From contig CP076324.1 in assembly GCA_018771605.1 (NCBI GenBank), positions 1,178,001-1,242,000 on the forward strand: a stretch of 64,000 nt of DNA. Direction: 5' to 3'. The position numbers and the translations under genes are program-made. Shown one piece after another: positions 33,284-50,707 of the stretch. Positions within the stretch are counted from its first letter, which is position 1, and each line of letters begins with the position of its first letter. The notes under the pieces are model-generated. The model saw nothing but the letters and a program-made list of their open reading frames with translations, ran no database searches and was not told where the DNA came from. Source of the DNA: Aquificota bacterium (lineage in GTDB: Bacteria > Aquificota > Aquificia > Aquificales > Aquificaceae).

Positions 33284-34132
33284 TTAGGCCTCAAGTTCAC
33301 CCCTCCTGTAATAGCTATATCCAATAGCATAAGCATATGTATAAACAAGCACACAAGTTAAAGTCCTCCACCCACTACCAGCATTGAAAAGTTTTATCTG
33401 ACTTATAACACCCTCCACCACCTGCCTTTTTGCCCTCATCTCCCTACTATCACACACAATAACACCTTCACAGCCCCTATAACCCCTATCACCATACACC
33501 ACACAATTCTCCACAAGCCCCCTAAACCATAAACTCCTTTTCTTTCTCTCTCTGAATGCCCTAACTTCATGCACGCTTCCAAAAGTTATCCACACATCAT
33601 AAACTCTCCCCTCCCTATCACATAACACCATCATCAACATACCATATCTTACCTCCTCAAACTCCACTACCTTCCCATTGTCTCTCCGAACTATCTTCCT
33701 TCTCCTCTTTGCCCACCATACCTTCCCTCTTACCCTCCTTATCTTCTGTGTCCTCGCTCTGTTTACATTGGCTATGTCCACTATGGTTCCATCTATTACA
33801 AGTTCTATCTTCTTACCATACAAAAGCCTTGCTAAAATCATAAGCCTCAGCTTGTGAAGCTTGTATTCTCTCAATATCCTGTATACTCTCTTGAGTCTGT
33901 ATCTTCTGAAGATATGCCATGATTGTATGGATGGGTCAATAAGTAGTTTAGCTAAGGTGAGGACTTTTGTATTGGTTATGTAGGAGAGTATAAAGATGGC
34001 TGCTATATGGATGTCTGTGAGTTTAGGCTTTCTGCCTGCTTTAGCTTTTGGCACATTAAGGAATGGCAAGGCATTTTCAAGGTCTTTTAGGATTTGTTGG
34101 TAGATGCGTAGGTAAGGTGGTATAATTTCCAT
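33284..34132 (-). CDS. IS transposase (DDE, IS5/IS982-like), copy 1
   Basis: 282 residues. Candidate catalytic residues are D114 (VIDGTIVDIANVNR), D215 (VYGDRGYRG) and E240 (RQVVEGVISQIK), an RNase-H-fold DDE arrangement with the spacing of IS5/IS982-type enzymes; I do not assign the family firmly. The N-terminus is helical and Lys-rich, for end binding. A perfect hairpin (34157-34177) precedes the ATG and could block transcription entering from outside. Compared with copy 2, the N-terminal half is identical and about seven residues differ, all in the C-terminal half. Confidence 0.9.
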   Translation of the reverse strand: MEIIPPYLRIYQQILKDLENALPFLNVPKAKAGRKPKLTDIHIAAIFILSYITNTKVLTLAKLLIDPSIQSWHIFRRYRLKRVYRILREYKLHKLRLMILARLLYGKKIELVIDGTIVDIANVNRARTQKIRRVRGKVWWAKRRRKIVRRDNGKVVEFEEVRYGMLMMVLCDREGRVYDVWITFGSVHEVRAFRERKKRSLWFRGLVENCVVYGDRGYRGCEGVIVCDSREMRAKRQVVEGVISQIKLFNAGSGWRTLTCVLVYTYAYAIGYSYYRRGELEA

Positions 34133-34289: not shown

Positions 34290-37139
34290 TTACATACCCT
34301 TTTCAAGTATAGTCCGCACAAGTCCTTCCATGGAGTCTTCTAAGTCATCAAGGGGTATAGTCTGAACCTTCTTCCCTTTTAAGAAAATATCCACAGCCAG
34401 TTTTACCTCTCCGTTTATCTTTACCTTTGTACCCACAAAGCCAAGGTCTCCAGCGCCATGCTGTCCACAACCCTTGGCACACCCAGACCAGTGCATCCGT
34501 AAGGGTAAGTGGATTGGCATCTTTTGAGATAGATAGCCTGCAAGCCTTAAAGCGTCCGGCTTGTTTTCAATGACTCCAAAGGCGCAGGTCTCACTCCCTT
34601 GGCAGGCTATAAGGCCTGTAAGGTATGGGGAGGCACTGGTTGGATATTTGTTAAAGATTGGGTCCGAAAGTAGCTCTTCCAAATGTTCCTCTGGAATGTT
34701 TACAAGGTATATGTTTTGGTATACAGATAGCCTTATCTCACCACTTCCATATTTCCTTGAAAGGTAAGCCAGCCTTTCCAAATCCTCCCCTGTAAAGATG
34801 CCCGCAGGCACCATCAGGCTAACGGCGTAGAGGCCGTTCTTTTGCCTTATTATTCCAGTCCTCTCACCCGCCCTTTCTACCAAATCCTCACCCTTTCTCC
34901 AAAGGTTTCTCAAAAGCCTTCTCTCTATCTCGCCCCTAAAGCCCTCCACACCCAGCTCTTCTATTAAGAAGTAAAGCCTGTTCTTTGTCCTATCTTCTCT
35001 GCTTCCCATATCTGAATATATCTCAAGCACCGCCTTAGTTATATCTATGGCTTCGTAGGGAAGGACAAAGATATTTAGGTCAAGGGCCTCCACAGGACCA
35101 CCGGAGCCTATCTTACCGCCCGCATAAACGTTAAAGCCGTAGATGTTATCCTTTTTTGCTAAATAAAAGCAAAGGTCGTTATACCTGCAGTTTATACTAT
35201 CTGTCTTTGAACCTACCAAGCCCAGGTTAAACTTCCTTGGAAGGTCCGCATACTGTCTTTTGCCTAGGAAAATCTCCGTTATCCTCTTGCTTATGGGTAT
35301 GGTGTCAATGATTGAGTCTTCCGCAAGGCCCGATAGGGGGTCTCCCGTGATGTTTCTCACATTGTCCATACCCGTTTGTAGAGTTGTAAGCCCCACCCTT
35401 TCTATGGCTGATAGAACCTCCGGAAGGTCTTTTAACTCTATCCACCTTAGCTGTATCTGTTCCCTTGAGGTGAGGTCTACCTGGTTCCTTCCAAACTTCT
35501 TAGAAAGGTAGGCTATAACCCTTGCCTGGTCTGCGTTTAGCTTTCCATGGGTAATTCTAATCCTAACCATAAAGTAGCCAGGCGTGGCCTTTCTATAAAA
35601 GATGCCATACCACTTTAGCCCATACTCTCTGTCCTCCTCCGGCACCCTTTGCCAATCTCCATGCTCCCTTGCCCAAACTTCAAGCTTTTCCCTTAGGTTA
35701 ACCTCAAAGGGATGTTTACTTCTCTTGTATTCTTCTACTTTGTTTACCTTTGCTGGCCTTACCTTTACATGCTCTTTTAGTATGCTTTCAATGGTTGGCA
35801 TACACCCACCGCAGGAAGTGGAAGCTTTTGTGAGAGCTTGGATATCTTCAATAGTTTTAGCTCCGCTTTTTATGGCCTCAAGGATCCTTCCGTAAGAGAC
35901 GGCGTTGCAGTTGCAAACAAGGTCCTCTGGCTTAAAGGTGATTTTTACCTCTTCCTTGATTAAATCCCTTATAAGAAAGTGTGGCTTTATGTTTTCCACA
36001 CTCTTCCCTGTCCTGATGAGGTCCAATAGGCTTTCGCTTCCTGCCAAGTCTCCAAGCAGTATGGCACCCACAAGCTTACCATCCCTCACAATGGCCTTCC
36101 TATACCTGGAGCTGTCCTTAAAGAGGATCACCTCATCCCCTTCCCTTTCCTGAATCTCCCCCACCGACATAAGCCTTACTCCAGCCACCTTTAGAATGGC
36201 ATGGCTTAAGGACCCTTCGTACCTTTCCACATTGCCATACAAAAGGTTTTTGGCGCACACCTTAACCTGCTCCATTATGGGAGCCAAAAGCCCGTAAGTC
36301 TTTTCCCTGTGCTGTATACAATCGCCTATGGCGTATACATCCTGCTCCGATGTCTCAAGAAAATCGTTTACAAGCACACCCCTATCCACCTTTATGCCAG
36401 AGTTCTTTGCCAGCTCCACGTTTGGCACCACGCCCGTGGCTATTATAACCATATCCGCCTCTATCTCCTCCCCATCGGAGAACCTCACACGGCTAACCTT
36501 CTTCTCTCCAACTATCTCCTCCGTCCTTTTTGAAAGCAAAACCCTTATGCCAAAGCCCTCAAGGCTTTTCTTAAGCATATCGCTGGCTGTTTTGTCAATA
36601 TATTGCTCCATAAGCACGTCAAAAAGGTGAACCAGATAAACATCAAGGCCTATATCTTTTAAGGCCTTTGCACACTCAAGGCCAAGGAGGCCACCCCCTA
36701 TTACCACAGCCCTTTTTGAAACCCTCGCCAGCTCCATTATGCCATACACATCCCTTATACTCCTAAAGGTAAAGACCCCCTTCTTATCCACACCCTTTAT
36801 AGGTGGCACCTTGGGAAGGCTTCCAGTGGCTATAACCAGCTTATCATAGGGATAAAGCTTCCCATCGGAAGTTAGCAAAAGCTTCTTCCAAGGTAATACC
36901 TTTTCAACCTTTTCACCTATATGTAGCTTTACACCATGCTCTTCGTAATAGCTCCACCTGTTTATAACTATCTGACTAAAGAGCTTTTTACCGCTGAGGA
37001 TATCCGCCAAGTGTATCCTGTTATAGCTTAAGGTCCTTTCCTCGCCAAAGACGTGTATTTCAATGTCTCCGCCTTGCCTTATGAGCTCCTCAACCAAAGC
37101 AGTGCTTGCCATACCGTTTCCTACCACTATAACCTTCAT
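34290..37139 (-). CDS. nirB: Nitrite reductase: NAD(P)H flavoprotein, [2Fe-2S] and siroheme/[4Fe-4S] fusion
   Basis: 949 residues, longer than usual NirB (about 800-850). In order: FAD/NAD domain with VVVGNGMAST, VVIGGGLLGLECA and YAIGDCIQ (1-400); a BFD-type [2Fe-2S] domain with CNC (418) and SCGGC; then a complete two-half siroheme reductase starting at about 500 (ARVIAYLSKKFGRNQVDLTSREQIQLRW) and ending with C846-C852 (CQGSETC) and C887-C891 (CAKGC), the siroheme/[4Fe-4S] ligands. It reduces nitrite to ammonium with six electrons. The reductase part is longer than that in common NirB and looks like ferredoxin-type NirA joined to a NADH-oxidising head. ATG 37139 has AGGAGGT upstream. Divergent from the rest of the nitrogen cluster. 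No nirD is seen. Confidence 0.88.
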   Translation of the reverse strand: MKVIVVGNGMASTALVEELIRQGGDIEIHVFGEERTLSYNRIHLADILSGKKLFSQIVINRWSYYEEHGVKLHIGEKVEKVLPWKKLLLTSDGKLYPYDKLVIATGSLPKVPPIKGVDKKGVFTFRSIRDVYGIMELARVSKRAVVIGGGLLGLECAKALKDIGLDVYLVHLFDVLMEQYIDKTASDMLKKSLEGFGIRVLLSKRTEEIVGEKKVSRVRFSDGEEIEADMVIIATGVVPNVELAKNSGIKVDRGVLVNDFLETSEQDVYAIGDCIQHREKTYGLLAPIMEQVKVCAKNLLYGNVERYEGSLSHAILKVAGVRLMSVGEIQEREGDEVILFKDSSRYRKAIVRDGKLVGAILLGDLAGSESLLDLIRTGKSVENIKPHFLIRDLIKEEVKITFKPEDLVCNCNAVSYGRILEAIKSGAKTIEDIQALTKASTSCGGCMPTIESILKEHVKVRPAKVNKVEEYKRSKHPFEVNLREKLEVWAREHGDWQRVPEEDREYGLKWYGIFYRKATPGYFMVRIRITHGKLNADQARVIAYLSKKFGRNQVDLTSREQIQLRWIELKDLPEVLSAIERVGLTTLQTGMDNVRNITGDPLSGLAEDSIIDTIPISKRITEIFLGKRQYADLPRKFNLGLVGSKTDSINCRYNDLCFYLAKKDNIYGFNVYAGGKIGSGGPVEALDLNIFVLPYEAIDITKAVLEIYSDMGSREDRTKNRLYFLIEELGVEGFRGEIERRLLRNLWRKGEDLVERAGERTGIIRQKNGLYAVSLMVPAGIFTGEDLERLAYLSRKYGSGEIRLSVYQNIYLVNIPEEHLEELLSDPIFNKYPTSASPYLTGLIACQGSETCAFGVIENKPDALRLAGYLSQKMPIHLPLRMHWSGCAKGCGQHGAGDLGFVGTKVKINGEVKLAVDIFLKGKKVQTIPLDDLEDSMEGLVRTILEKGM

Positions 37140-37381
37140 AGGCACCTCCTACCCTTTATCTATGCAAGAAGCTTGCCAATTGGAGTTTTTTAAAGGCCCT
37201 TTATTTACGCCCTTGTTCGGAATAATCTGTGCCCTTTGGATTAACATTTTTACATTTTTGTAAACAATTTTACAATAGTGTAGTTATAACTTTTTATAAA
37301 AAATCAAGCTGGCGTAAGCCTTTTATAACCTCCTATGTCTGGCATTGATTTTGCAAATATGAAGGGTGAGGAGGTGAAGCC
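37140..37381. promoter_or_regulatory. Divergent control region of nirB and the globin-PII-nrt operon
   Basis: The 242-bp AT-rich stretch holds a perfect palindrome TTTACA-TTTT-TGTAAA (37249-37264), a typical binding site of a dimeric helix-turn-helix regulator of the Crp/Fnr or similar kind, and a possible -10 TATAAC (37285-37290) for the rightward operon. GGTGAGGAGGTGA precedes the globin ATG. The regulator identity is not known; nitrogen or NO signals are plausible. Confidence 0.45.
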
Positions 37382-37810
37382 ATGCGGGAAGAAACAAAGA
37401 TGGCCATAAGAAAAAGCATACCCTTTTTGCAGTCTAACGGCGAGAGGTTAACCTCTCGCATGTACCAGATACTCTTTGAAAAGAACCCAGAGCTTAGGAA
37501 CATGTTTGAAAGCAACAATTCCAAAAAGCTCGCCAGTGCTTTGCTTGCCTTTGCCCAGAACCTGGATAGGCTACATGTATTGGAGCCAGCCATAAACACA
37601 ATGGCGCTTGCCCATGCAAAGGCTGGTGTAAAGCCCGAACACTACCCTAAGGTTTGGGATGCCCTTTACCAGGCCATGGTTGAAATGGGTGTTGGCCAAG
37701 ACCTTATTGAGGCATGGAAGGAAGCCTATTGGTTTTTGGCCGATGTGCTAATTAGCAAAGAGAAAAGGCTTTACGCATGCCTTGAAGAGGTCAAAGGAGG
37801 TGTGCCATGA
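37382..37810 (+). CDS. Single-domain globin (thermoglobin-like)
   Basis: 142 residues. It resembles the globin domain of flavohaemoglobins: Tyr28 at B10 (RMYQILFEKNPELRNMF), Phe/Gln-rich helix E, proximal His78 in LAHAKAGVKPEHYPKVWDAL, and YACLEE at the end. There is no reductase domain. Aquifex aeolicus has a similar thermoglobin. It probably removes NO by oxidation to nitrate or binds O2. As first gene of the nitrate/nitrite operon it would protect against NO formed from nitrite. AGGAGGTGAAG upstream; overlaps the first PII gene by 4 bases. Confidence 0.9.
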   Translation: MREETKMAIRKSIPFLQSNGERLTSRMYQILFEKNPELRNMFESNNSKKLASALLAFAQNLDRLHVLEPAINTMALAHAKAGVKPEHYPKVWDALYQAMVEMGVGQDLIEAWKEAYWFLADVLISKEKRLYACLEEVKGGVP

Positions 37811-38097
37811 AGGAGCTTGTGGTGATAGTAAGAAGAGAAAAGAGCGCAGAGGTGAAAAGCTTTCTCTCATCCATAGGTCTTGATTATGTGTCCAAAACTG
37901 TGAAGGGAAGGGGTAAGGAGGGGGGCTTGGGGTACAAAACAAACAAGGGAGTTATCATGTCCCTTCTGCCAAAGACCCTTATACTCACCTGGGTGGAGGA
38001 GGCCCTTTATGAAGAGGTGATTGAAAAGATCATGGATATAGCCCATACGGGCTTTTATGGTGATGGAAAAATCTTTGTGATAGGAGGTTGGTCATGA
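37807..38097 (+). CDS. PII-family regulatory protein 1 (NifI-like)
   Basis: 96 residues. PII core with KELVVIVRREKSAEVKSFL, T-loop region KGRGKEGGLGYKTNKG, and the C-terminal signature IAHTGFYGDGKIFVIGG. The T-loop is short and has no tyrosine at the uridylylation site, as in NifI1 proteins that act in adjacent pairs. It senses 2-oxoglutarate and ATP/ADP and acts by protein contact. Overlaps the second PII gene. Confidence 0.85.
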   Translation: MKELVVIVRREKSAEVKSFLSSIGLDYVSKTVKGRGKEGGLGYKTNKGVIMSLLPKTLILTWVEEALYEEVIEKIMDIAHTGFYGDGKIFVIGGWS

Positions 38098-38420
38098 GGA
38101 TGATAAAGGCTGTTATAAGGCCAGAGAAGCTTTATGAAGTGATGAGGGCTTTGGAAAAGGAAGGCTTTAAAGGTATAACGGTGATGGATGTGGTGGGAAG
38201 GGGAAGGGAGGGTGGTATTCAGGTAGGAGATAAAAACTACGATGAGCTTGCAAAGACTCTCATAATGATAGCAGTTGAGGATGAGTATTCGGACAAAGTT
38301 GTAGACATTATAACAAGGCACGCAAATACGGGTATGTTTGGAGATGGGAAGGTTTTTGTCTGTCAGCTTGAAGAGGTTTGGACTATAAGGACTAAAAAGA
38401 GGGAGGTGCACCATGGATAG
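38094..38420 (+). CDS. PII-family regulatory protein 2 (NifI/GlnB-like)
   Basis: 108 residues. MIKAVIRPEKLYEVMRALEKEGFKG is a good PII start; T-loop VGRGREGGIQVGDKNYDELAK lacks the GlnB Tyr51; HANTGMFGDGKVFV is the B-loop signature. ATG 38094 is used as the stop of the first PII overlaps it (ATGA) and GGAGG precedes. A tandem with the first PII points to hetero-oligomers, as with NifI1/NifI2. The next gene overlaps its end by 8 bases. Confidence 0.87.
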   Translation: MRMIKAVIRPEKLYEVMRALEKEGFKGITVMDVVGRGREGGIQVGDKNYDELAKTLIMIAVEDEYSDKVVDIITRHANTGMFGDGKVFVCQLEEVWTIRTKKREVHHG

Positions 38421-39633
38421 AAGAGATTTCATCACAAAAGGTCTTCTGGTTGCGGGTGGTCTTACACTATCGGCTCCCTACATCAGCAGGGCACAAGGGA
38501 AAATAAGGATAGGATACATACCCCTAACGGACTGTGCTTCTGTGGTAATGGCAAAGGGGCTTGGGCTTTACAAAAAGTACGGTGTGGATGTGGAAATATC
38601 AAAAGAAGCAAGCTGGCCAAATGTTAGGGATAAGCTGTTAAATGGAGAGCTTAAAGCCTCCCATTGTCTCTTTGGTATGCCCTTCTCCGTTTACATGGGT
38701 ATAGGCGGTCCTGCAGGCAGGGTTATGCCCATAGGCATGATTCTAAACTTCAACGGTCAGGCTATTACCCTTTCTCAGGAAGACTTTGGTGGTAGAGTAG
38801 GCTTTAGAGAAATAAATAAGGTAAAGCCCGTAGTAGATGAGCTTAAAAGGAAAGGCAAAACACCAACCTTTGCTATGACATTCCCTGGAGGAACACACGA
38901 TATTTGGCTAAGATACTGGCTTGGAGCTTGCGGTATAAATCCAAACAGGGATGTAAGGGTAATACCCATACCACCACCACAGATGGTAGCCAACATGAAA
39001 GTGGGTAATATGGACGGCTATTGCGTTGGAGAACCATGGAATGAGGTTGCTGTAAGGGAAGGTATAGGCTTTACCCATCTTGCAACCCAAGATATATGGA
39101 AGGATCATCCAGAAAAGGCTTTGGTTTTCAACCAGGAATTCTTTAGTAAAAACGTAGAAGAGGTAAAAGCTATTATGAAAGCGGTGCTTGAAGCAAGCAG
39201 ATGGCTTGATGACCTTAAAAATAGAAAGGAAGCCTCCAAAGTGCTTGCAAGGTATGTGAATGCAAAACCTGAAGATATAGAAACAAGGCTCCTTGGTGTC
39301 TACCATCTTGGTAAGGGGCTTGGAGAATACAGATACAAGGATGATTACATGCTCTTTTTTAAAAGTGGTGCAGTAAACATACCCAAGTATTCTTACGGCA
39401 TCTTCTTCCTTGGTCAATACAGGAGATGGGGAATGATAAAACAGGTTCCTGATTACCTTGGCATATCAAAAAAGCTTATAGCCAAACCACTTTTTCTTGA
39501 GGTGGCAAAAGAACTAAACATAAAGGTAAAAGACGATGATATGACACCTCTGAGGGGCTTTATAGACGGTGTGGTCTTTGACCCAAACAAGCCAGAGCAG
39601 TCCATAAAAGCTTACAAGGTTAAGGAGGTGTAA
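38413..39633 (+). CDS. Nitrate/nitrite/cyanate-type ABC transporter substrate-binding protein (NrtA-like)
   Basis: 406 residues. Twin-arginine signal MDRRDFITKGLLVAGGLTLSAP with a cleavage after ISRAQG. The binding domain (NMT1/NrtA fold) has IRIGYIPLTDCASVVMAKGLGLY, FPGGTHDIWLRYWLGACGINPN and DGYCVGEPWNEVAV, typical for the NrtA/CmpA family. It delivers nitrate, nitrite or cyanate to the permease. It overlaps the PII gene and is followed by nrtB after 2 bases. The adjacent cyanase makes cyanate a serious alternative to nitrate. Confidence 0.87.
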   Translation: MDRRDFITKGLLVAGGLTLSAPYISRAQGKIRIGYIPLTDCASVVMAKGLGLYKKYGVDVEISKEASWPNVRDKLLNGELKASHCLFGMPFSVYMGIGGPAGRVMPIGMILNFNGQAITLSQEDFGGRVGFREINKVKPVVDELKRKGKTPTFAMTFPGGTHDIWLRYWLGACGINPNRDVRVIPIPPPQMVANMKVGNMDGYCVGEPWNEVAVREGIGFTHLATQDIWKDHPEKALVFNQEFFSKNVEEVKAIMKAVLEASRWLDDLKNRKEASKVLARYVNAKPEDIETRLLGVYHLGKGLGEYRYKDDYMLFFKSGAVNIPKYSYGIFFLGQYRRWGMIKQVPDYLGISKKLIAKPLFLEVAKELNIKVKDDDMTPLRGFIDGVVFDPNKPEQSIKAYKVKEV

Positions 39634-39635
39634 AA

Positions 39636-40460
39636 ATGGTACGTACTGAGAAAGGTTTAAAGTTTAAACTTATAGAGCTTTCTATTAGGCCTGGTACCCT
39701 CTCCACTGTTGCCGCTGCCATAGTCCTCCCCATCTTCGGTGCCTTCCTTTTTTTCCTTTTTTGGTATATACTTTCCCTTTTTATAAGAGAGCTACCTGCA
39801 CCTATAAGTACTTTAAAGACCCTTTTTGACCTAATTTCCAACCCCTTCTATGACCTTGGTCCTAACGATAAAGGGATAGGGTGGCAGTTGCTCACATCTC
39901 TAAAAAGGGTTTTCCTTGGTTTTCTTATAGGTTCTCTTATCGCTCTGCCGGCAGGCTTTCTCATAGGAATGAGCTCAAAGCTGAAGGAGATTTTAAACCC
40001 CATTGTACAGGTACTTAGACCCGTTTCACCCATGGCTTGGTTTCCCATAGGACTTGCCCTATTTAAGTCTTCTAACGAGGCCTCTATATTTGTTATTGCT
40101 ATAACATCCCTTTGGCCCACCCTTATAAATACTGCCTTGGGTGTTTCTTCCCTTCCGGAGGATTATAAAAACCTTTCAAGGGTTTTTGGCTTTCCCTTTC
40201 GCTACTACATAACAAAAGTTTTGCTTCCATACAGCCTTCCCTATATCCTAACAGGCTTTCGTCTAAGCCTTGGTATAGGGTGGATGGTAATAGTGGCTTC
40301 TGAAATGCTGGCTGGCGGTATAGGTATAGGCTTTTTTGTATGGGATTCATGGAACGCCCTAAACTTAGAAAAGGTATTGTCCGCCATTCTACTGATAGGC
40401 ATAGTAGGCCTTCTCATAGACCTGCTATTTGCAAAGCTTACGGAAAGACTAAGGAGGTGA
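39636..40460 (+). CDS. Nitrate/cyanate-type ABC transporter permease (NrtB-like)
   Basis: 274 residues with six hydrophobic segments; EAA loop LSRVFGFPFRYYITKVLLPYSLPYILTGFRLSLGIGWMVIVASEML is typical for the NrtB/SsuC/TauC group. It makes the inner-membrane channel for the transporter encoded around it. AAGGAGGTG precedes the ATG. The ATPase gene follows after 3 bases. Confidence 0.88.
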   Translation: MVRTEKGLKFKLIELSIRPGTLSTVAAAIVLPIFGAFLFFLFWYILSLFIRELPAPISTLKTLFDLISNPFYDLGPNDKGIGWQLLTSLKRVFLGFLIGSLIALPAGFLIGMSSKLKEILNPIVQVLRPVSPMAWFPIGLALFKSSNEASIFVIAITSLWPTLINTALGVSSLPEDYKNLSRVFGFPFRYYITKVLLPYSLPYILTGFRLSLGIGWMVIVASEMLAGGIGIGFFVWDSWNALNLEKVLSAILLIGIVGLLIDLLFAKLTERLRR

Positions 40461-40463
40461 GAT

Positions 40464-41243
40464 ATGAGAGGATATTTAGAAGTTTTTAACCTTACGGTGC
40501 GTTTTGGTAATCATGTAATACTCCATGGACTTGACCTTCTCGTGGAAAGGGGTGAGTTTGTAAGCATAATAGGACACTCTGGCTGTGGTAAGTCTACACT
40601 TTTGGGTGTTATTGCTGGTCTTATAAAGCCTTCCGAGGGTTCTGTGGTGCTTGATGGTAAGGAGGTTTTGGAACCAGGTCCAGATAGGGCTATGGTCTTT
40701 CAGAACTATTCTCTTCTGCCTTGGCTTTCTGTATATGAAAACGTTATGCTTGCAGTAAAGTCAGTTTTTAAAGGCGAAGATCTCACAAAGGCTAGAAGGA
40801 AGGCGGAAGATTACTTAAAACTGGCAGGCCTTTGGGAACACAAGAATAAGCTTCCTTCTCAAATCTCTGGTGGTATGAAGCAAAGAACTGCCCTTGTAAG
40901 GGCCTTGGCTGTGGACCCTAAAGTGCTTCTCCTTGATGAACCCTTTGGTGCCCTTGACGCCTTAACAAGAGCTACATTGCAAGATGAGCTTTTAAGAATA
41001 TGGGAAAATGACAAAAAAACTGTGCTGATGGTTACTCATGATGTGGAAGAAGCTATATATATGTCTGACCGCATAGTGATTATGAGCAATGGACCATCCG
41101 CTAAGGTCTACGACATTGTAAAGGTTGGCATAAAGAGACCAAGGGTAAGGGAGGAGATGATTAGGTTGAAGGAATACTTAGACCTTAAGGAATACCTGAT
41201 ATACACCTTAAGGGAAAAGTTAAAGAGGAGGGAAGTGGCATGA
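40464..41243 (+). CDS. Nitrate/cyanate-type ABC transporter ATP-binding protein (NrtC/D-like)
   Basis: 259 residues. Walker A GHSGCGKST (about 38-45), VFQNYSLLPWLSVYENV, signature ISGGMKQRTALVRALA, Walker B VLLLDEPFGALDALTRATLQDELL and TVLMVTHDVEEAIYMSDRIVIM, the pattern of NrtD/SsuB/TauB ATPases. No extra C-terminal NrtA-like regulatory domain of NrtC is present. It powers the importer. The cyanase start overlaps its stop by 4 bases. Confidence 0.9.
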   Translation: MRGYLEVFNLTVRFGNHVILHGLDLLVERGEFVSIIGHSGCGKSTLLGVIAGLIKPSEGSVVLDGKEVLEPGPDRAMVFQNYSLLPWLSVYENVMLAVKSVFKGEDLTKARRKAEDYLKLAGLWEHKNKLPSQISGGMKQRTALVRALAVDPKVLLLDEPFGALDALTRATLQDELLRIWENDKKTVLMVTHDVEEAIYMSDRIVIMSNGPSAKVYDIVKVGIKRPRVREEMIRLKEYLDLKEYLIYTLREKLKRREVA

Positions 41244-41719
41244 GTTATAAAGTTGGTTTTTTGACAAGGGAAGAAGCAAAAGAATTATTGCTTTCAGCTA
41301 AGGATAAAAAGGGTTTTACATGGTCTCAGCTAGGAAAGGCCATGGGTCTAAGCCCAGTATACACAGCTATGCTTGTATACGGCTATGGTCAGGCAAGGGA
41401 AGAAGAGGCAAGCAAATTGACAGATATTCTAGAGATTCCTGCAGATGTTAGAGAAGAGGTTAAAAGGGTTTTAACCAAAGCCCCCTACAGAGCTCCTTCC
41501 CAACCATGGCCTCCCACAGATCCCTTTGTCTATAGGCTTTATGAAGTAGTCTTGCTTTATGGCCCTGTTATTAAGGATGTGGCCCATGAACTCTTTGGCG
41601 ATGGCATCATGAGCGCCATAGATATGTCAATAGATGTGCAAAAGATAGAAGAACCAACGGGCACTCCAAGAATGGTGCTGACCCTCAATGGTAAGTGGCT
41701 TCATTACAAAAAGTTCTAA
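41240..41719 (+). CDS. cynS: Cyanase (cyanate hydratase)
   Basis: 159 residues, as in E. coli (156). The N-terminal helix-turn-helix-like domain (SQLGKAMGLSPVYTAMLVYG) is followed by the catalytic part VYRLYEVVLLYGPVIKDVAHELFGDGIMSAIDMSIDVQK, in which R99, E102 and S125 are the three catalytic residues. It converts cyanate and bicarbonate into ammonium and CO2, giving nitrogen and detoxification. It overlaps the ATPase gene by ATGA, so the transporter and cyanase are made together. Confidence 0.96.
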   Translation: MSYKVGFLTREEAKELLLSAKDKKGFTWSQLGKAMGLSPVYTAMLVYGYGQAREEEASKLTDILEIPADVREEVKRVLTKAPYRAPSQPWPPTDPFVYRLYEVVLLYGPVIKDVAHELFGDGIMSAIDMSIDVQKIEEPTGTPRMVLTLNGKWLHYKKF

Positions 41720-41737: not shown

Positions 41738-43162
41738 GTGAGACGTATCATAGAAGCTATAAAATCGGGCAATCCTAAGGCCCTTTTTGCGTCCTTTTTG
41801 TACTTTGATACTGGCTTTAGCATATGGCTTTTGCTTGGCGCCTTGGCGCCCTTTATAGCCCAAGAGCTAAACCTCTCTCCTGCACAAAAGGGTTTTCTTG
41901 TAGCTGTCCCCGTTCTCTCTGCCGCCATCCTTAGGATAAACTTTGGCTATCTTTACCAGTCTGTAGACGGAAGAAAGATAGCACTGGCTGGTATAATCCT
42001 TTCCGGCATTCCATCCCTTTTTGCCCTTCTCTTCCCATCCTATTTAGATGATTACACGGTGCTTCTCCTCTTGGGTGTGCTTTTGGGTATGGGTGGAGCC
42101 AGCTTTGCAGTTGCTCTTCCCATGGCTGGTAGCAACTATCCGAGAGAAGTTCAGGGTCTTGTATTGGGCCTTGCGGCGGCTGGAAACATAGGGGCTGTTT
42201 TGGATGGCATCCTTTTCCCTCCTCTTGCAAAGACCTTTGGCTGGAAAGAGACGATGGCTATGGCTGGGCTTTTGCTGGTGATAACCTTTTTGGTGGTCTT
42301 TTTCTGGTCAAAGGATAAAGGAGAGAAGGAAGGCAGGGGGACTTATCCCATCCTTGTCTTTGTTATAACCATCCTCTTTATGCTCTTTTTGGTTCCAGCT
42401 CTTGAGAGGGGCTGGCTTGGTATAAAAGGTAAAGAAGCCTTGCTTTTACTCCCACTTATAGGAAGCGCCTTTGTGCTTTCCTTCCTGCCAAACAGATACA
42501 GAAGAGTTTTTCTTGAAAGGGATACATGGCTTATGGTCCTCATATACAGCATAACCTTTGGCGGCTTTGTGGGTATGTCTTCCTATGTGAGCCTTTATCT
42601 CATTGACCAGTATGGTTTTTCAAAGATTGAGGCTGGAGCCTTAATGTCCCTCTTTGCCTTTACGGGAGCCTTTATAAGGCCCTTTGGAGGCTTTATTGCG
42701 GATATGATAAGCGGTGTTAGAGCCTTGACCTTTATACTCTTTGGCATAGCCAGCATGTACATGGTGTTGTCTGTGCTTAAACTACCACCTTTCCTTGGTG
42801 TGCTTGCCCTTCTTGTAATCTTTGCCTTTTTTGGACTTGGCAACGGTGCAACCTTCCAGCTTGTACCACACCGATGGCCAAAGGTTAGGGGTATGATGGC
42901 TGGTATTATAGGCGCTGCCGGCGGTTTTGGAGGCTTTTATCTTCCCACCGTCTTAGGTATAGTAAAGGAAACAACCGACTCTTACTCTGCTGGCTTTTTC
43001 CTCTTTTCAATGGTAGCCCTAACTGCCTTGGTTCTGTTAAGGCTTGTGCATAGTCAATGGATGGAATGGGCTTATGTTAGGTATGACTACGAGAAGGATA
43101 TGCTAACCGGTATAGCTCCCAACGGGAGGGTGGTGATGGATTTTGTTTATAAGGAGGATTAA
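41738..43162 (+). CDS. NarK/NasA-type nitrate/nitrite MFS transporter
   Basis: 474 residues with about twelve hydrophobic segments. NarK-family motifs: WLLLGALAPFIAQELNLSPAQKGFLVAVPVLSAAILRINFGYL, LLGVLLGMGGASFAVALPMAGSNYP and LGNGATFQLVPHRWPKVRGMMAGIIGAAGGFGGFYLP (the second nitrate signature). GTG start with AAGGGGG upstream. It moves nitrate or nitrite across the inner membrane, next to the assimilatory nitrate reductase. A second entry route besides the ABC transporter. Confidence 0.92.
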   Translation: MRRIIEAIKSGNPKALFASFLYFDTGFSIWLLLGALAPFIAQELNLSPAQKGFLVAVPVLSAAILRINFGYLYQSVDGRKIALAGIILSGIPSLFALLFPSYLDDYTVLLLLGVLLGMGGASFAVALPMAGSNYPREVQGLVLGLAAAGNIGAVLDGILFPPLAKTFGWKETMAMAGLLLVITFLVVFFWSKDKGEKEGRGTYPILVFVITILFMLFLVPALERGWLGIKGKEALLLLPLIGSAFVLSFLPNRYRRVFLERDTWLMVLIYSITFGGFVGMSSYVSLYLIDQYGFSKIEAGALMSLFAFTGAFIRPFGGFIADMISGVRALTFILFGIASMYMVLSVLKLPPFLGVLALLVIFAFFGLGNGATFQLVPHRWPKVRGMMAGIIGAAGGFGGFYLPTVLGIVKETTDSYSAGFFLFSMVALTALVLLRLVHSQWMEWAYVRYDYEKDMLTGIAPNGRVVMDFVYKED

Positions 43163-43163
43163 A

Positions 43164-45182
43164 ATGAAAGCCTTTCAATGTCCTTACTGTGGAGTGGGCT
43201 GTGGCCTCCTGTGGGATGAGGGAAAGATAAGGGGGGACAAGAGCCATCCGGCCTCACGGGGAGAGGTCTGCAAAAAGCCCCTTTACTACCCAGAGGCGAT
43301 GCACAAGGGAAGACTTTTAAAGCCCATGTTTAGGGAAACTAAAAAAGAACCCTTTAGAGAGATAAGCTGGGAAGAGGCCTATTCCATACTTTTAAAGAAG
43401 TTAAAAGAACACTCTCCCGAGGAGCTTTACTTTTACCTTTCAGGACAGCTTTTGACGGAAGACATATATGTGATGAACAAGTTTATAAAAGGTTTTTTAA
43501 AGACAAATAATGTGGATGCCAACTCAAGGCTCTGCATGGCAACGGCCGTATCTGCCTACAGGCTGGCCTTTGGCTCCGATGGCCCACCTTGCTCTTATGA
43601 GGACCTGGATGATGCAGACACCTTTGTCTTTGCAGGCTCCAACGCCCTTTGGACCCATCCCGTGCTTTTCAAAAGGATACTCAAAAGAAAGGCCAAGGGA
43701 GAGGCTATAAACATAATAGTTATAGACCCTGTAAAAACACAAACGGCCCAAAAGGCAGACAAACACTACCAAATAAGGGCTGGAACAGATGCTGTGCTTT
43801 TTAACTCGGTGCTTTACGTGCTTTATGAGAAGGGATGGATAGACGAAGAGTTTATAAAGAACCATGTAGATGGCTTTGAAGAGGCCATAAAGGAAGCTTT
43901 AAAATATCCACCCAAAAGGGCCTCGGAGATATGCAAGATAGAAGAAAAAGATATATGGGAGCTTGCGGAATACTACGCCTTTAGCAAAAAGCTCATATCC
44001 CTGTGGTGCCAAGGCCTCAACCAATCATCGCAAGGTGTTATGAAGAACATAGCCCTCATAAACCTACACCTTGCCACAGGAAGGCTAAATAACAAGGGCT
44101 GTCCCTTTTCCTTGACAGGCCAGCCCAACGCCATGGGTGGAAGGGAGATGGGCTATCTTTCCAACGGCCTTCCGGGATACAGGGATGTGAGGAAGGAGGA
44201 AGACAGGGAGTTTATGGAAGCCTTTTGGGGAATTCCTACGGGTAGCATAAAGCCCGAGCCGGGTCCAACCATTACAGAGGCCATAGACCTTATGCTTAAG
44301 GGAGATATAAAGTTTTTGTGGGTGGTTGCCACAAACCCTGCCATTACTCTACCAAACCTTGGCAAGGTGTGGAAAGCCCTTGAAAAGGTCTTTTTGGTGG
44401 TCCAAGATGCCTATTGGAACCATACCTGTGAGTTTGCCAACCTCCTACTGCCCGCAAGCCAGATGGGTGAAAAGGAAGGGGTGATGACAGGGTCCGACAG
44501 GACCATAAGCCTATGCACCAAGTTCTCAGAAGCTCCCGGCCAAGCCAAGGAAGACTGGAGGATATTTACAGAGCTGGCCCAAAGGATGGGCTACGAAAAG
44601 CACTTTCCCTACATGTCTTCGGAAGAGATATTTAATGAGCTAAGGAAGGCCACAAAGGGCAGGCTCTGCGATATATCTTCCTTTTCTTACAAAGATTTAC
44701 CCAAGAGGTGGGGAGGAAAACACCTTTATGAGGACCTAAGGTTCAAAACAGACACGGGAAGGGCCAAGATGTACCCAGCTATATACAAGCATCATCATGC
44801 AAGGTTTATCCTTATAACGGGAAGGACAAAGAACCAATGGCATACCATGACAAGGACTGGCAAAAGCCCAGAGCTTTTAAAGGGGGAGGAAGAACCTTTT
44901 TTGCTTATGAACCCAGAGGACGCCCAAAGCATGGGGATAGCGGAAGGAGACAAGGTCAAGCTTATGTCTTTGGAGAACAAGGAGCTGGTTGAGTTAAAGG
45001 TAAGGCTTGGAGATATAAAGAGGGGACACCTTTTTGCACCCTTTGGCTATGGGTCTGTGCCAGTTAACCTGCTTTTAGGAGAAAAAATAGACCCCATTTC
45101 AAAGGAGCCAGAGCTAAAGTTTACACCTGTTTTGGTCTATGCAAAGGATAGGAGGTTTATGGCCTATGAGCTTGAAAGGTAA
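43164..45182 (+). CDS. narB: Assimilatory nitrate reductase catalytic subunit
   Basis: 672 residues. [4Fe-4S] ligands C6, C9, C13 and C36 at the N-terminus (CPYCGVGC and GEVC), Mo-ligand Cys in NSRLCMATAV (about 125), and the MGD-binding C-terminal domain ILITGRTKNQWHTMTRTGKSPELL. There is no Tat signal, so it is cytoplasmic and assimilatory, in the NarB/NasC class. It reduces nitrate to nitrite with reduced ferredoxin or flavodoxin. ATG 43164 follows AAGGAGG; an upstream start would overlap the transporter. It overlaps the hemD-like gene. Confidence 0.93.
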   Translation: MKAFQCPYCGVGCGLLWDEGKIRGDKSHPASRGEVCKKPLYYPEAMHKGRLLKPMFRETKKEPFREISWEEAYSILLKKLKEHSPEELYFYLSGQLLTEDIYVMNKFIKGFLKTNNVDANSRLCMATAVSAYRLAFGSDGPPCSYEDLDDADTFVFAGSNALWTHPVLFKRILKRKAKGEAINIIVIDPVKTQTAQKADKHYQIRAGTDAVLFNSVLYVLYEKGWIDEEFIKNHVDGFEEAIKEALKYPPKRASEICKIEEKDIWELAEYYAFSKKLISLWCQGLNQSSQGVMKNIALINLHLATGRLNNKGCPFSLTGQPNAMGGREMGYLSNGLPGYRDVRKEEDREFMEAFWGIPTGSIKPEPGPTITEAIDLMLKGDIKFLWVVATNPAITLPNLGKVWKALEKVFLVVQDAYWNHTCEFANLLLPASQMGEKEGVMTGSDRTISLCTKFSEAPGQAKEDWRIFTELAQRMGYEKHFPYMSSEEIFNELRKATKGRLCDISSFSYKDLPKRWGGKHLYEDLRFKTDTGRAKMYPAIYKHHHARFILITGRTKNQWHTMTRTGKSPELLKGEEEPFLLMNPEDAQSMGIAEGDKVKLMSLENKELVELKVRLGDIKRGHLFAPFGYGSVPVNLLLGEKIDPISKEPELKFTPVLVYAKDRRFMAYELER

Positions 45183-45960
45183 AAGGATTGCCATATGCGC
45201 CTCAAGGAAGGCGCTGGATATAACAGAGAAGATCATAAACTTAGGTGGTAGGCCCTTTGTGGAGGATATAGTTAGAATAGAGTATGTGCCAGAGGAGGAG
45301 GTAAGGGACGCCCTTATAGAATCCTTGTCTTTAAAGCCTCACTTCTTTTTGTTTACCACCGGCGAGGGAGCGGAAAGAGTGTTCCAAGTGGCGCAGAAGT
45401 ATGGCCTTTTTGAGCCTTTGAGGGAAAACATGCTAAAAGGAACTATTCTGGCAAGAGGCTATAAGACAAGAAAGGTGCTTCTTAAATATGGCTTTGAGGG
45501 CTTTAGGACCGTGGAAAGCTCGGGAGAGTTCATAGATTTTTTGAAGGAGGAAGAGGTAAAAGGAAAGGTGGTCTTTATTCAAATGTACGGCGAGGAGCTT
45601 CCAGCCTTGGAAAGGCATATGCTTGAAGCTGGTGGAAAGGTCCTAAAGGTGTGGGTCTATAGGTATGTGCCAGATATGGAAAGAATTGATGCCTTTATTG
45701 AAAAGCTTTTGAATGGGTTTTACGATGGGGTGCTTTTCACTTCGGCCTTTCAGGTAAGGTGGCTCTTTGCCAGGGCAAAGGAAAGGGGTCTAAACAAGGA
45801 GCTAAGCAAAAGGATGAACAAAGAATTGACCACCGTATCCGTTGGGCGCACCACTGCAAAGGCTTTGTTTGAAAACGGCGTTATAAGGGTTTTTATACCA
45901 GAGAGGGAAAGGCTCAGCCTTGCAATAAAAGAACTCATAAGGGCCTTTGAAGATGGGTAA
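45166..45960 (+). CDS. hemD: Uroporphyrinogen-III synthase
   Basis: 264 residues. KGKRIAICASRKALDITEKIINLGG, FLFTTGEGAERVFQ, VFIQMYGEELPALERHMLEAGGKVLKVWVYRYVPD and TSAFQVRWLFARAK with SVGRTTAKAL are all characteristic of HemD, a poorly conserved family. It closes hydroxymethylbilane to uroporphyrinogen III. In a nitrogen operon with cobA it supplies siroheme for nitrite reductase. ATG 45166 overlaps narB by 17 bases; it overlaps cobA by 8 bases. Confidence 0.82.
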   Translation: MSLKGKRIAICASRKALDITEKIINLGGRPFVEDIVRIEYVPEEEVRDALIESLSLKPHFFLFTTGEGAERVFQVAQKYGLFEPLRENMLKGTILARGYKTRKVLLKYGFEGFRTVESSGEFIDFLKEEEVKGKVVFIQMYGEELPALERHMLEAGGKVLKVWVYRYVPDMERIDAFIEKLLNGFYDGVLFTSAFQVRWLFARAKERGLNKELSKRMNKELTTVSVGRTTAKALFENGVIRVFIPERERLSLAIKELIRAFEDG

Positions 45961-46702
45961 GGTCTATATTGTAGGCGCAGGACCAGGAGACCCAGAGCTT
46001 TTAACGCTTAAGGCTTTGAGGCTAATAAAGTCCGCAGAGGTTATCCTCTACGACAGGCTCATAAACCAAGAGATACTTCTTTTTGCCAAGCCAGACTGTG
46101 AGCTGGTCTATGTAGGAAAAGAAGATGGAAAACACACAATAGAGCAGGAGAAGATAAACGAGCTTTTGCTAAGGTATGCCCACACAAGGGAAGTGGTGGT
46201 AAGACTAAAAGGAGGAGACCCATTCATCTTTGGAAGGGGAGGAGAAGAGGCCCTCTTTTTGGCAGAGCATGGCGTAGAGTTTGAGATAGTTCCGGGAGTA
46301 AGCTCCTTTTACTCAGTGCCAGCCTACGCTGGCATACCAATAACCTTCAGGGGTATATCCTCATCCTTTGCCGTAATAACAGGACATGAGGACCCAAAAA
46401 AGGAAAAATCAAGCATAGATTGGGAGAGTCTAAAAGGGATAAACACCTTGATAGTTCTCATGGGAGTATCAAGAAGAAAAGAGATAGCCAAAAGGCTTAT
46501 AGAGGTAGGGAGGGACCCAAAGGAGCCTGTGGCCTTTATAGAGAATGGGACCACAGAGAGGCAGAGGGTCATTTTAACAGACCTTTATGAGTTATCCACA
46601 AACCCCCCTGAGGTAAGCCCGCCCGCCATCATGGTGGTGGGAGAGGTGGTAAGGCTGAGAGAGAAGCTTGTCTCATTTAATTTTGTGCTAAAAATAAATT
46701 AG
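45953..46702 (+). CDS. cobA: Uroporphyrinogen-III C-methyltransferase (SUMT)
   Basis: 249 residues. VYIVGAGPGDPELLTLKALRLI, DRLINQEIL, VVRLKGGDPFIFGRGGEEAL and VPGVSSFYSVPAYAGIPITFRG are SUMT signatures. It methylates uroporphyrinogen III at C2 and C7 to precorrin-2, first step to siroheme. The last residues LVSFNFVLKIN and the stop codon TAG are encoded by a repeat (46668-46707) seen elsewhere, so the gene tail has been reshaped. The CRISPR array starts 17 bases after the stop. Confidence 0.93.
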   Translation: MGKVYIVGAGPGDPELLTLKALRLIKSAEVILYDRLINQEILLFAKPDCELVYVGKEDGKHTIEQEKINELLLRYAHTREVVVRLKGGDPFIFGRGGEEALFLAEHGVEFEIVPGVSSFYSVPAYAGIPITFRGISSSFAVITGHEDPKKEKSSIDWESLKGINTLIVLMGVSRRKEIAKRLIEVGRDPKEPVAFIENGTTERQRVILTDLYELSTNPPEVSPPAIMVVGEVVRLREKLVSFNFVLKIN

Positions 46703-46707
46703 ACAAA
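46668..46707. repeat. Inverted-repeat motif at the left edge of the CRISPR-Cas block
   Basis: TTGTCTCATTTAATTTT (46668-46684) and AAAAATAAATTAGACAAA (46690-46707) are imperfect reverse complements and form a hairpin. Both are variants of AAAAATAAATGAGACAAA, seen at 15504, 15651, 62519 and, inverted, at 53046-53059. Located between cobA and the CRISPR array. Confidence 0.7.
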
Positions 46708-46719
46708 AAATTTTTATAC

Positions 46720-47477
46720 GTTTATATCCCTCATTGTCCAAATCCTACAAGGACACTCCTCTCAAAGCCACCTTTACTCTCTTTTGCTTTATATTCCTCA
46801 TTGTCCAAATTCTACTCTACCGCCACACGCCAAAATTCTATCGTGGCGCCCTCCTTTATATTCCTCATTGTCCAAATCCTACAGCCGCTAAAAGGAGGCG
46901 CCCAAATGCTTTAGTTTCACTTTATATTCCTCATTGTCCAAATCCTACGTTGTTAGCAAGTTCAAGGACTTGTTCAAGTTTCAACTTTATATTCCTCATT
47001 GTCCAAATCCTACCCTCTCCAGAGTTTAAGCCTTGCCATAGAGAACTCTCTTTATATTCCTCATTGTCCAAATCCTACAGAGCTTAAGCAGGCTGTGAAG
47101 AAATATGCAGCTGGTACTTTATATTCCTCATTGTCCAAATCCTACCCTTGCTAAGCAGAGCATCTGCCAAGAGGTCTCATGCTTTATATTCCTCATTGTC
47201 CAAATCCTACCAAACAGTGCTTATGCTATGTTTATGTTTTCACACATCTTTATATTCCTCATTGTCCAAATCCTACAGCTACAGTTTGCAAGGCGTCCGA
47301 TAATTGTGGTTTGCTTTATATTCCTCATTGTCCAAATCCTACTATTAAACAATATTACAGAAGATGTTAAAAATACCATAATTCTTTATATTCCTCATTG
47401 TCCAAATCCTACTGCCTCCGCCTGTTGTGGAAAGATTGGAGGATATTTCTTTATATTCCTCATTGTCCAAATCCTAC
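46720..47477 (-). CRISPR. CRISPR array, 12 repeats of 29 bp
   Basis: Plus-strand repeat is 29 bp, starting CTTTATATTCC and ending CAAATCCTAC. Repeat starts: 46720, 46787, 46854, 46920, 46985, 47050, 47117, 47182, 47248, 47314, 47384, 47449. Eleven spacers of 36-41 bp (one is 41, the rest 36-38). The first two plus-strand repeats deviate (G and TCCC in the first, ATTCTAC in the second), which marks this as the old, trailer end; the leader is at the right. Transcription is thus probably leftward, like the cas genes. In that sense the repeat starts GTAGG and ends ATATAAAG, the likely 8-base 5' handle of crRNAs. Spacer sources cannot be determined here. Confidence 0.98.
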
Positions 47478-47703
47478 CCAACACCTACCACCTAAAGCTA
47501 ATATAGACACCACAACAACTTCAAAAACTTGCCAAGTGGTTCAAGTGAAGCAAAATTTCCGCGAACCTCCAGTTGGGAATTGATAATTTTTCGCAAATAG
47601 GCTTCTAAGCCTTGATACATCTTATCCAGAATGCTATGAACCTAAAAAGTAGGTTCACGGATGATTAAGAGATGATAAAGTCCTTATTCAATTGCCAAAA
47701 ATA
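47478..47703 (-). promoter_or_regulatory. CRISPR leader / cas 3' intergenic region
   Basis: A 226-bp region between the array and cas3. In the leftward sense a -10-like TATATT (complement of 47500-47505) lies about 22 bases before the first repeat, which suits a crRNA promoter. GAACCTA-AAAAG-TAGGTTC (47638-47656) is a hairpin that may end the cas transcript, although no T run follows. No gene seen. The end adjoining the array is where new spacers would be inserted. Confidence 0.5.
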
Positions 47704-49971: not shown

Positions 49972-50707
49972 GCTTTTCCCTCTTATAGAAAAACAAAGGA
50001 AGCCTTGTCTCTTTATCAAGTATGAATTCCATATCGGATGTGTGTAAGCCATGCAAAAGCTTACTTTCAACGTATTCTGTAAAAACTCTTACACCATTTA
50101 TAATTTCATAATACAAGCTAACCATATAAGTATTAGCTACCACATCTATATCATACCTATCATACATAAGCTTTTTTGGAAGCCATGTATAGTAATCAAA
50201 AGACTCAATTAACCCCTCTTCCGTCTCCACCCTCTTTACATCCTTTACCACAATCCAATCTTCTGCTCTTCCAAGATGTAAAGCCTTGCTTGGAAATCTT
50301 ATTCTTTCGGAGAGTTCTTCTAAAAGCTCTTCATTCTCATGATAGACATAGATTATAAGCTCCACATCAAAGAGTAAATCCACAAGCACAGGCTGAGTGC
50401 CACCTACATGATAAGGAAGTCCATGCTTTGTTCTATTCTTAGCATGGACATACTCTTGAATATGATTCTTTATTCTTAAATTCCTGTAAGTTTGTAAAGT
50501 GGTAGCATAGCTCCCATGCTTTCCAAAGATAGAAAGAGATAGACCATCTTTTAATCTCTCTATCTTTTCCTTTTCCTCTAAGCTATTGCACAAAAGCCCC
50601 ACCACGGTGGAGTATGGCGGTATAGGATAGGTGTGTTGTCTCATAAAGGTGAAAAAGACCCTATAATGTGCCACTGGTTGGTATATCTCTATCCTTATTT
50701 CTCCCAT
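49934..50707 (-). CDS. cas5: CRISPR Cascade subunit Cas5 (I-B)
   Basis: 257 residues. N-terminal RAMP strand EIRIEIYQPVAHYRVFFTFMRQHTYPIPPYSTVVGLLCN is the Cas5 signature, with SKALHLGRAEDWIVV further on and a conserved C-terminal part. It binds the 5' handle of crRNA and caps the Cas7 backbone. Overlaps cas7 by 13 bases and cas3 by 38 bases. Closest to the Cas5t/b group. Confidence 0.9.
   Translation of the reverse strand: MGEIRIEIYQPVAHYRVFFTFMRQHTYPIPPYSTVVGLLCNSLEEKEKIERLKDGLSLSIFGKHGSYATTLQTYRNLRIKNHIQEYVHAKNRTKHGLPYHVGGTQPVLVDLLFDVELIIYVYHENEELLEELSERIRFPSKALHLGRAEDWIVVKDVKRVETEEGLIESFDYYTWLPKKLMYDRYDIDVVANTYMVSLYYEIINGVRVFTEYVESKLLHGLHTSDMEFILDKETRLPLFFYKREKHAVSKKQRSLFE

Follow-up and report, generated by a model that had tools for sequence, protein, structure and literature searches.

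The tandem PII proteins NifI1 and NifI2 are known as regulators of nitrogenase, and the question raised by the present locus is what a pair of similar genes does in the nitrate/cyanate operon of an Aquificaceae bacterium. The locus lies in a 64,000-nucleotide stretch of DNA that was analysed as a whole and is here called the window; the genome to which it belongs (G000) comprises 1,722,082 bases in one contig. An earlier note, made from the sequence alone, had described two overlapping PII genes at 37807-38420, with a globin gene on one side and an ABC transporter on the other, and our results bear out this description. The two genes, here called P1 and P2, overlap by ATGA and their products match PF00543 over most of the model with scores of 49.9 and 94.5 bits, respectively (gathering cut-off 25); a PF00042 globin gene lies upstream and nrtABC downstream. 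The operon reads globin, P1, P2, nrtA, nrtB, nrtC, cynS, narK, narB and two sirohaem-synthesis-like genes, and the features of the locus are as follows.

34290-37145, minus strand: NirB-like/NirA-like sirohaem nitrite reductase fusion, divergent
37382-37810, plus strand: globin opening the operon, consisting solely of a flavohaemoglobin-type haem domain
37807-38097, plus strand: P1, 96-aa PII-like protein of the NifI2 side
38094-38420, plus strand: P2, 108-aa NifI1-like PII protein (ATG at 38094)
38413-39633, plus strand: nrtA, ABC transporter of nitrate/cyanate type
39636-40460, plus strand: nrtB, same transporter, NCBIfam cut-off exceeded
40464-41243, plus strand: nrtC, same transporter, NCBIfam cut-off exceeded
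41240-41719, plus strand: cynS, cyanase (TIGR00673 above cut-off)
41738-43162, plus strand: narK, MFS nitrate/nitrite transporter (TIGR00886, 281 bits, below the cut-off of 311.7)
43127-43144, plus strand: narK codons for R-V-V-M-D-F, the C-terminal tail motif and proposed docking peptide
43164-45182, plus strand: narB-type assimilatory nitrate reductase
45139-45960, plus strand: uroporphyrinogen-III synthase-like, named from sequence recognition
45947-46702, plus strand: uroporphyrinogen-III methyltransferase-like, named from sequence recognition

Both uroporphyrinogen-III genes (45139-46702) stay with the nitrate cluster in relatives. No RNA element was detected in the operon at Rfam thresholds, and in promoter and terminator scans shuffled sequence scored as well as the operon. 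Directly downstream of the operon lie a CRISPR array of 12 repeats at a spacing of ~66 bases (46697-47479) and Cas3b-like and Cas5b-like genes (47704-50707), while a transposase-like ORF (33284-34132; DDE_Tnp_1 score slightly below the Pfam cut-off) adjoins the nitrite reductase gene.

Four PF00543 matches were found in the genome, i.e., P1, P2, a GlnB gene adjoining glnA, and a PII gene beside a transporter gene at L003:546-1785, which, from recognition by eye, we take to be SbtB-like and SbtA-like. The earlier note had seen no nif gene nearby, and a profile search agreed with it on a larger scale, returning no PF00148 (NifDK) protein across the whole genome.

Kinship and sequence characters of P1 and P2

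The earlier note had attributed short T-loops without the uridylylation Tyr to both proteins. Counted as the residues between G37 and K58, the T-loop has 16 residues in P2 and 19 in P1 compared to 20 in all 19 GlnK sequences examined, so that both loops are indeed short and that of P2 falls four residues below GlnK's. Neither protein has Tyr at aligned position 51, the uridylylation site, but P2 carries a Tyr close by (NYDEL), as do most NifI1 proteins, and the claim of a missing Tyr therefore holds for the aligned position only. The GlnB encoded beside glnA in the same genome keeps a 20-residue T-loop with Tyr51. The 16-residue loop is combined with Thr101 in 16/16 Aquificaceae P2 rows and 28/28 NifI1 rows; position 101 is Arg or Lys in 19/19 GlnK rows. 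P1 lacks the long insertion of NifI2 (T-loop of 26-48 residues) and stops directly after its GDGKIFV B-loop, leaving no C-loop; residue 103 is missing in 15 of the 16 Aquificaceae P1 rows.

A PII tree of 99 rows, derived from a 157-row tree by removing 58 long-branched or near-duplicate rows, placed the GlnK rows in a separate clade (support 100/97) and P2 on the NifI1 side (99/87). P1, which is long-branched, fell together with the P1 proteins of Nitrospirota nitrate (nas) clusters and NifI2 on one side of a branch supported at 97/90. AU tests rejected none of the alternative placements of P1 or P2 (p 0.433 and 0.487, besides the values that follow), including P2 with GlnK (p 0.111), P1 with GlnK (p 0.461), P1 as a local duplicate of P2 (log-likelihood 13 lower, p 0.222), and a recent derivation from the NifI pair native to the family (p 0.137 for P2 and 0.243 for P1). 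Among solved structures, P2 was closest to 9p1x_H (8.9e-29; runner-up 1.2e-21), an entry in which a 125-aa PII chain and the alpha chain of nitrogenase are also present; it counts 6 alpha, 6 long PII and 12 short PII chains, which puts its two kinds of PII at 1:2. Two discrete characters and the tree thus support the view that P2 is NifI1-like, whereas P1 is likely, with less certainty than P2, to be a NifI2-side member. The earlier label "NifI-like" fits P2 by its T-loop, Thr101 and tree position and is only likely for P1, given its AU value with GlnK; the phylogeny set GlnK apart, and the pairing itself was found again in relatives.

In both P1 and P2, E-G-G replaces Q39-K40-G41. Glu39-Gly40 occurs in all 32 nas-type rows of Aquificaceae (16/16 P1 and 16/16 P2), while Gln39 is present in 19/19 GlnK, 26/28 NifI1 and 28/28 NifI2 rows. 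Since the Nitrospirota pairs retain Gln39 (21 of 22 rows), its loss is specific to Aquificaceae among the sequences compared. According to an excerpt of PMC3198391, the protein contributes a single ligand to Mg in the ATP-Mg-2-oxoglutarate complex, namely Gln39, a residue that in the ADP state forms a hydrogen bond with Lys58; the neighbouring subunit supplies the C-loop, which carries two positive residues. Considering that Gln39 is lost in both subunits and that P1 has also lost its C-loop, altered effector sensing would be expected. From these residues we infer that 2-oxoglutarate sensing is weakened or altered in the Aquificaceae pair, which perhaps senses adenylates with little dependence on 2-oxoglutarate; a Glu39-Lys58 salt bridge is predicted.

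Distribution and candidate partners in the Aquificaceae

We sampled 101 genomes of the order, 53 from the family and 48 others, with a threshold of E < 1e-30 for P1. P1 was present, in an intact pair or a fusion, in 26/53 family genomes and in 0/48 of the others; the corresponding family counts were 30/53 for NarB, 26/53 for NirBA, 22/53 for NarK and 6/53 for NrtA. Of 64 family genomes, six encoded NifDK-type proteins (PF00148); 22 of the 26 genomes with P1 encoded none. Two loci, L041 and L042, have a second pair directly before nifB (105 + 135 or 112 + 135 residues), which is a NifI1/NifI2 arrangement distinct from the nitrate-linked pair of the same genomes. In Aquifex-type genera, P1 and P2 are fused as one protein of ~206 residues (eight loci; 18 fused sequences aligned, partly from the same genomes). 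AlphaFold2 modelled the fused protein as two PII folds (mean pLDDT 79, pTM 0.76), and a fold search with it recovered only the PII fold for each domain. The fused Aquifex aeolicus gene carries an old annotation as glnBi and may have drawn comment in reviews. Since the genes overlap, are naturally fused, and have a precedent in 9p1x, we infer that P1 and P2 assemble together.

Such a pair could be a NifI relic, or plain duplicates of GlnB/GlnK, carried in the operon without any special nitrate role. One genome (G004) does keep it in the absence of matches to narB, narK, nrtA or nirBA, and the AU test allows P1 to join GlnK. However, the pair is intact and conserved in 26/53 family genomes, 22 of them nif-less, its linkage to nitrate genes recurs in two phyla and is accompanied by gene fusion, and in L041 and L042 the NifI pair that the family has beside nifB is distinct from it. 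We consider it very improbable that the pair is such a remnant, and turn to the targets that a nitrate-dedicated pair might have.

Co-occurrence was tabulated over the 53 family genomes (both present, P1 only, partner only, neither), with p-values that ignore shared ancestry. P1 was associated most strongly with NarK (21/5/1/26, p 4e-9) and then with NarB (24/2/6/21, p 2e-7) and NirBA (19/7/7/20, p 9e-4), and showed no association with NrtA (4/22/2/25, p 0.42). Within the 30 NarB-bearing family genomes, P1 again followed NarK (21/3/1/5, p 0.002). P1 was present in 21 of the 22 NarK-bearing genomes; in the lone exception, G097, the contig begins at NarK residue 71 and so cuts off the place expected for the pair. 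The NarK of G097 has the tail motif discussed below, and the PII match of this genome is SbtB-like rather than P2. The end of the PII domain was at most 60 bases from the NarK match in 18 of the 22. In the other four, operon genes lie between the two (G000 and G042) or contig ends intervene (G093 and G097); in the window, it is nrtABC and cynS that separate the pair from narK. Two genomes, G072 and G060, have a unit of fused PII plus NarK away from narB and nirBA, and in G060 a NapA-like gene adjoins the PII-NarK unit. Conversely, nirA, nrtABC and narB occur without the pair in G016 and G018 (family f3), and the pair is absent from G070, where nirBA and nrtA are neighbours. These data point to NarK as the closest partner among the possible targets, and the P1-NarK co-occurrence may reflect shared inheritance of the operon block.

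Five genomes have the pair without NarK: G001, G026 and G010, which have NrtABC instead, and G004 and G080, which have neither. Since the pair persists in these genomes, it would there have another use or be in decay. The pairs of G004 (L038:5705-6315) and G080 (L056/L219) are intact in regions without narB, narK, nrtA or nirBA matches, and the nitrate genes that flank the pair in G001 are missing from G004. At L040:13961-14155, a cynS of 64 residues, probably a remnant, lies between P2 and nrtA, and L034:9911-13244 is the second cynS-nrtABC-like operon of its own genome.

The adjoining ABC transporter is a candidate in the window, where P2 directly precedes nrtA. The pair would then gate NrtABC as cyanobacterial PII does via NrtC and NrtD, both of which are bound by PII in Synechocystis according to the part of PMC6603209 consulted. 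Further support comes from outside the family: at the Clostridial loci L116:6283-11475 and L119, the gene order is allophanate hydrolase - NifI1 - NifI2 - ABC permease - ATPase - binding protein, with no NifH match within the stretches retrieved, and at L200:3463-7285 a single NifI1-type PII gene stands between cynS and nrtCBA; the genome of L200, a Nitrospirota genome, has a NifI1-NifI2 pair near nifB as well. Against this, NrtA is found in 4/26 pair genomes and in 2 family genomes lacking the pair, and the nrtABC-narB clusters of G016 and G018 dispense with the pair altogether. We therefore give NrtABC little chance of being the partner. Of the targets that the earlier note had proposed, the data favour uptake, with NarK ahead of the adjoining ABC transporter; it is NarK that tracks the pair, in gene presence and, as shown below, in a tail motif.

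Related pairs in Nitrospirota and other groups

A scan of 295 genomes of Nitrospirota, the phylum of L082, gave NifI1-like matches in 102 of them, and 40 chosen regions were read. A P1-P2 pair stood beside nitrate genes in nine of these 40 (L172, L174, L175, L186, L197 and L201-L204), and L082 is the tenth such pair of the phylum; most of the other regions held NifI1-NifI2 pairs, many with nifB. A NarK-like gene followed P2 in 10/10 of the nitrate-linked pairs, and was divergent in L201, L202 and L204 (38-45 bits). In three clusters, P1, here a NifI2-like PII domain, is fused behind a PF00174 oxidoreductase molybdopterin domain that makes up the N-terminal part of the protein, each fusion adjoining P2, narK and nirA.

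L203:3351-4457: PF00174-PII fusion
L197:7627-8781: PF00174-PII fusion
L186:5503-6633: PF00174-PII fusion

Similar proteins of 368 and 391 aa occur in L201 and L204, and L175 has the PF00174 domain as a separate gene. In Nitrospirota with PF00174-PII proteins, nitrate assimilation may involve a molybdoenzyme of the sulfite-oxidase type. Five clusters also have a third NifI1-type PII gene downstream of nirA, and these genes form a clade of their own (99).

L197:2282-2680: third NifI1-type PII gene
L201:3873-4193: third NifI1-type PII gene
L202:9468-9782: third NifI1-type PII gene
L203:9316-9636: third NifI1-type PII gene
L204:5392-5700: third NifI1-type PII gene

In archaea, NifI-like genes lie beside small NIR_SIR-domain reductases at L074:1172-3119 (three genes) and L075:41-1320. 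PF00148 was absent from 6/7 of the genomes behind L074, L075, L078, L082, L111, L116 and L119, an absence that is soft because these are mostly genome bins; the exception was G118, a Ruminococcus. Gene context in two phyla supports a role of the pair in nitrate assimilation without nif. The earlier note had contrasted adjacent PII pairs of nif operons with a nitrate role here, and to the extent that gene context and 22 nif-less genomes among 26 can speak for it, that proposal is strengthened.

The same contexts could be read as evidence that the pair acts on enzymes, binding NarB or NirBA as NifI1,2 binds nitrogenase. NarB is present in 24/26 pair genomes (p 2e-7), the Nitrospirota pairs adjoin NirBA, L186, L197 and L203 have the fusion of P1 with a molybdopterin oxidoreductase domain and L201 and L204 have similar proteins, and the archaeal pairs of L074 and L075 adjoin small sirohaem reductases. 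Yet six NarB-bearing family genomes lack P1 (including G097, cut by its contig start), P1 follows NarK even among NarB-bearing genomes, the fused PII-NarK units of G072 and G060 are apart from narB, and the association with NirBA is the weaker one. An enzyme target thus appears unlikely to us, and NarK remains the preferred partner.

Among earlier reports, as far as the parts consulted go, Nitrospira P-II proteins near nirA, ONR or glnA are named only GlnK/GlnB (PMC5767232, PMC7522533, PMC6311188), NifI1 and NifI2 are described in the nif operon of a member of the Aquificales (PMC12780486), and neither PMC2607301 nor PMC13381448 mentions a pair of the present kind. The literature searched yielded no report of a nas-linked PII pair or of a contact between PII and NarK.

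The NarK tail motif and a proposed gate

Pair-linked NarK proteins of both phyla share R-[VI]-x-M-[ED] as a motif close to the C-terminus; in the divergent NarK of L201, L202 and L204, R is replaced by Q or K and, in one case, E by G. Of the 22 family NarK proteins, 19 have a readable tail and all 19 have the motif, which is absent from three NarK of families f2 and f3 that are without the pair. We also read NarK from 70 of 111 matching Nitrospirota genomes, plus 4 from plasmids. The motif was found in 11/11 NarK whose stretch includes a NifI-family PII gene and in 0/63 of the others; seven of the 11 had supplied the motif and four were new, one of which (G350) has only a diverged P1-like gene. 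In all, motif and PII gene agree in 98/98 NarK compared. On a NarK tree built without the divergent L201, L202 and L204 and with the final 35 residues trimmed from all rows, motif and PII gene each change six times in parallel. Four supported independent pairs all point in one direction (sign test p 0.125, four being too few to reach 0.05).

Among 1319 ORFs of at least 250 aa in the loci studied, 47 have the motif in their last 40 residues, and all are NarK. Chance is a poor explanation of the motif, which is absent from every non-NarK ORF of that size in these loci; five shorter NifI2-type ORFs match it inside the PII domain and are unrelated. A Shine-Dalgarno constraint was also rejected as its cause, since the codons vary synonymously and the motif is kept where the next gene does not overlap. 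The sequences downstream of the motif differ between NarK genes.

We regard it as fairly probable, from these sequence comparisons, that P1 and P2 make up a hetero-oligomeric PII dedicated to gating nitrate/nitrite transport, which derives from a NifI1/NifI2-type pair and no longer serves nitrogenase. The oligomer would dock on the cytosolic C-terminal tail of NarK via R-[VI]-x-M-[ED] and slow or stop transport when nitrate-derived nitrogen is not needed, in response to the nucleotide and perhaps the 2-oxoglutarate state, comparable to the closing of AmtB by GlnK; the pair may, in addition, control further steps of this operon. The evidence base is one family and part of one phylum, with incomplete genome bins. 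A more elaborate version, tentative and on balance doubtful, would have the hetero-PII plug grip the NarK peptide in both phyla, with the loss of Gln39 making it an adenylate (energy-charge) switch in Aquificaceae, and with P1 tethered in some Nitrospirota to a sulfite-oxidase-type molybdopterin domain that could couple nitrate entry to reduction.

The proposed gate has points in common with several known systems. It shares with NifI1/NifI2 the tandem overlapping PII genes, the NifI1 T-loop and Thr101 in P2, and the NifI2-side tree position of P1. It differs in that the window genome has no nitrogenase genes, the NifI2-like gene comes first, P1 is without the long T-loop insertion and the C-loop of NifI2, Glu-Gly stands for Gln39-Lys40 in the 32 Aquificaceae rows, and some genera have the two proteins fused. 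SbtB and SbtA, whose likely counterparts in this genome were noted above, also combine a PII-like protein with the transporter encoded beside it, but SbtB belongs to a different PII branch and SbtA is a bicarbonate transporter. The GlnK-AmtB pairing (PMC3831643, in the part consulted) offers a PII fold, a PII gene directly beside a transporter gene, as in most relatives of the window, a stable gene linkage to one transporter (here NarK, with five pair genomes lacking it) and the T-loop as the likely contact. Here, in contrast, the partner is an MFS nitrate transporter with a tail motif, the PII subunits are two and unlike, and their T-loop sequences are unlike GlnK's and without Tyr51. Cyanobacterial NrtABCD likewise has its nitrate uptake controlled by PII (PMC6603209, as excerpted), although there one canonical PII acts on the ABC ATPases NrtC/NrtD, whereas here NarK tracks the pair and NrtA does not. 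With PII-NrtC/NrtD and GlnK-AmtB as precedents, PII control of nitrogen uptake is in itself ordinary; within the reach of the literature searched, what is new is that the partner belongs to the MFS family, that the subunits are unlike and that the transporter has a tail motif.

With a related pair that is kept without nitrogenase and tracks both a nitrate transporter and a short peptide on it, there is a specific contact that experiments can probe. If the proposal is true, the MFS family would join the transporters gated by PII, a PII pair would have been redirected to a new target along with the docking peptide of its partner, and nitrite oxidisers and hydrogen-oxidising thermophiles would gain direct on-off control of nitrate use. 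A hint in the same direction, noticed post hoc and amounting to about two independent losses, comes from T-loop position 50 of P2, where loss of Asp/Asn accompanies loss of NarK in pair-bearing genomes: the 31 rows with NarK have D or N there, and the 5 without it have L, M, P or Y.
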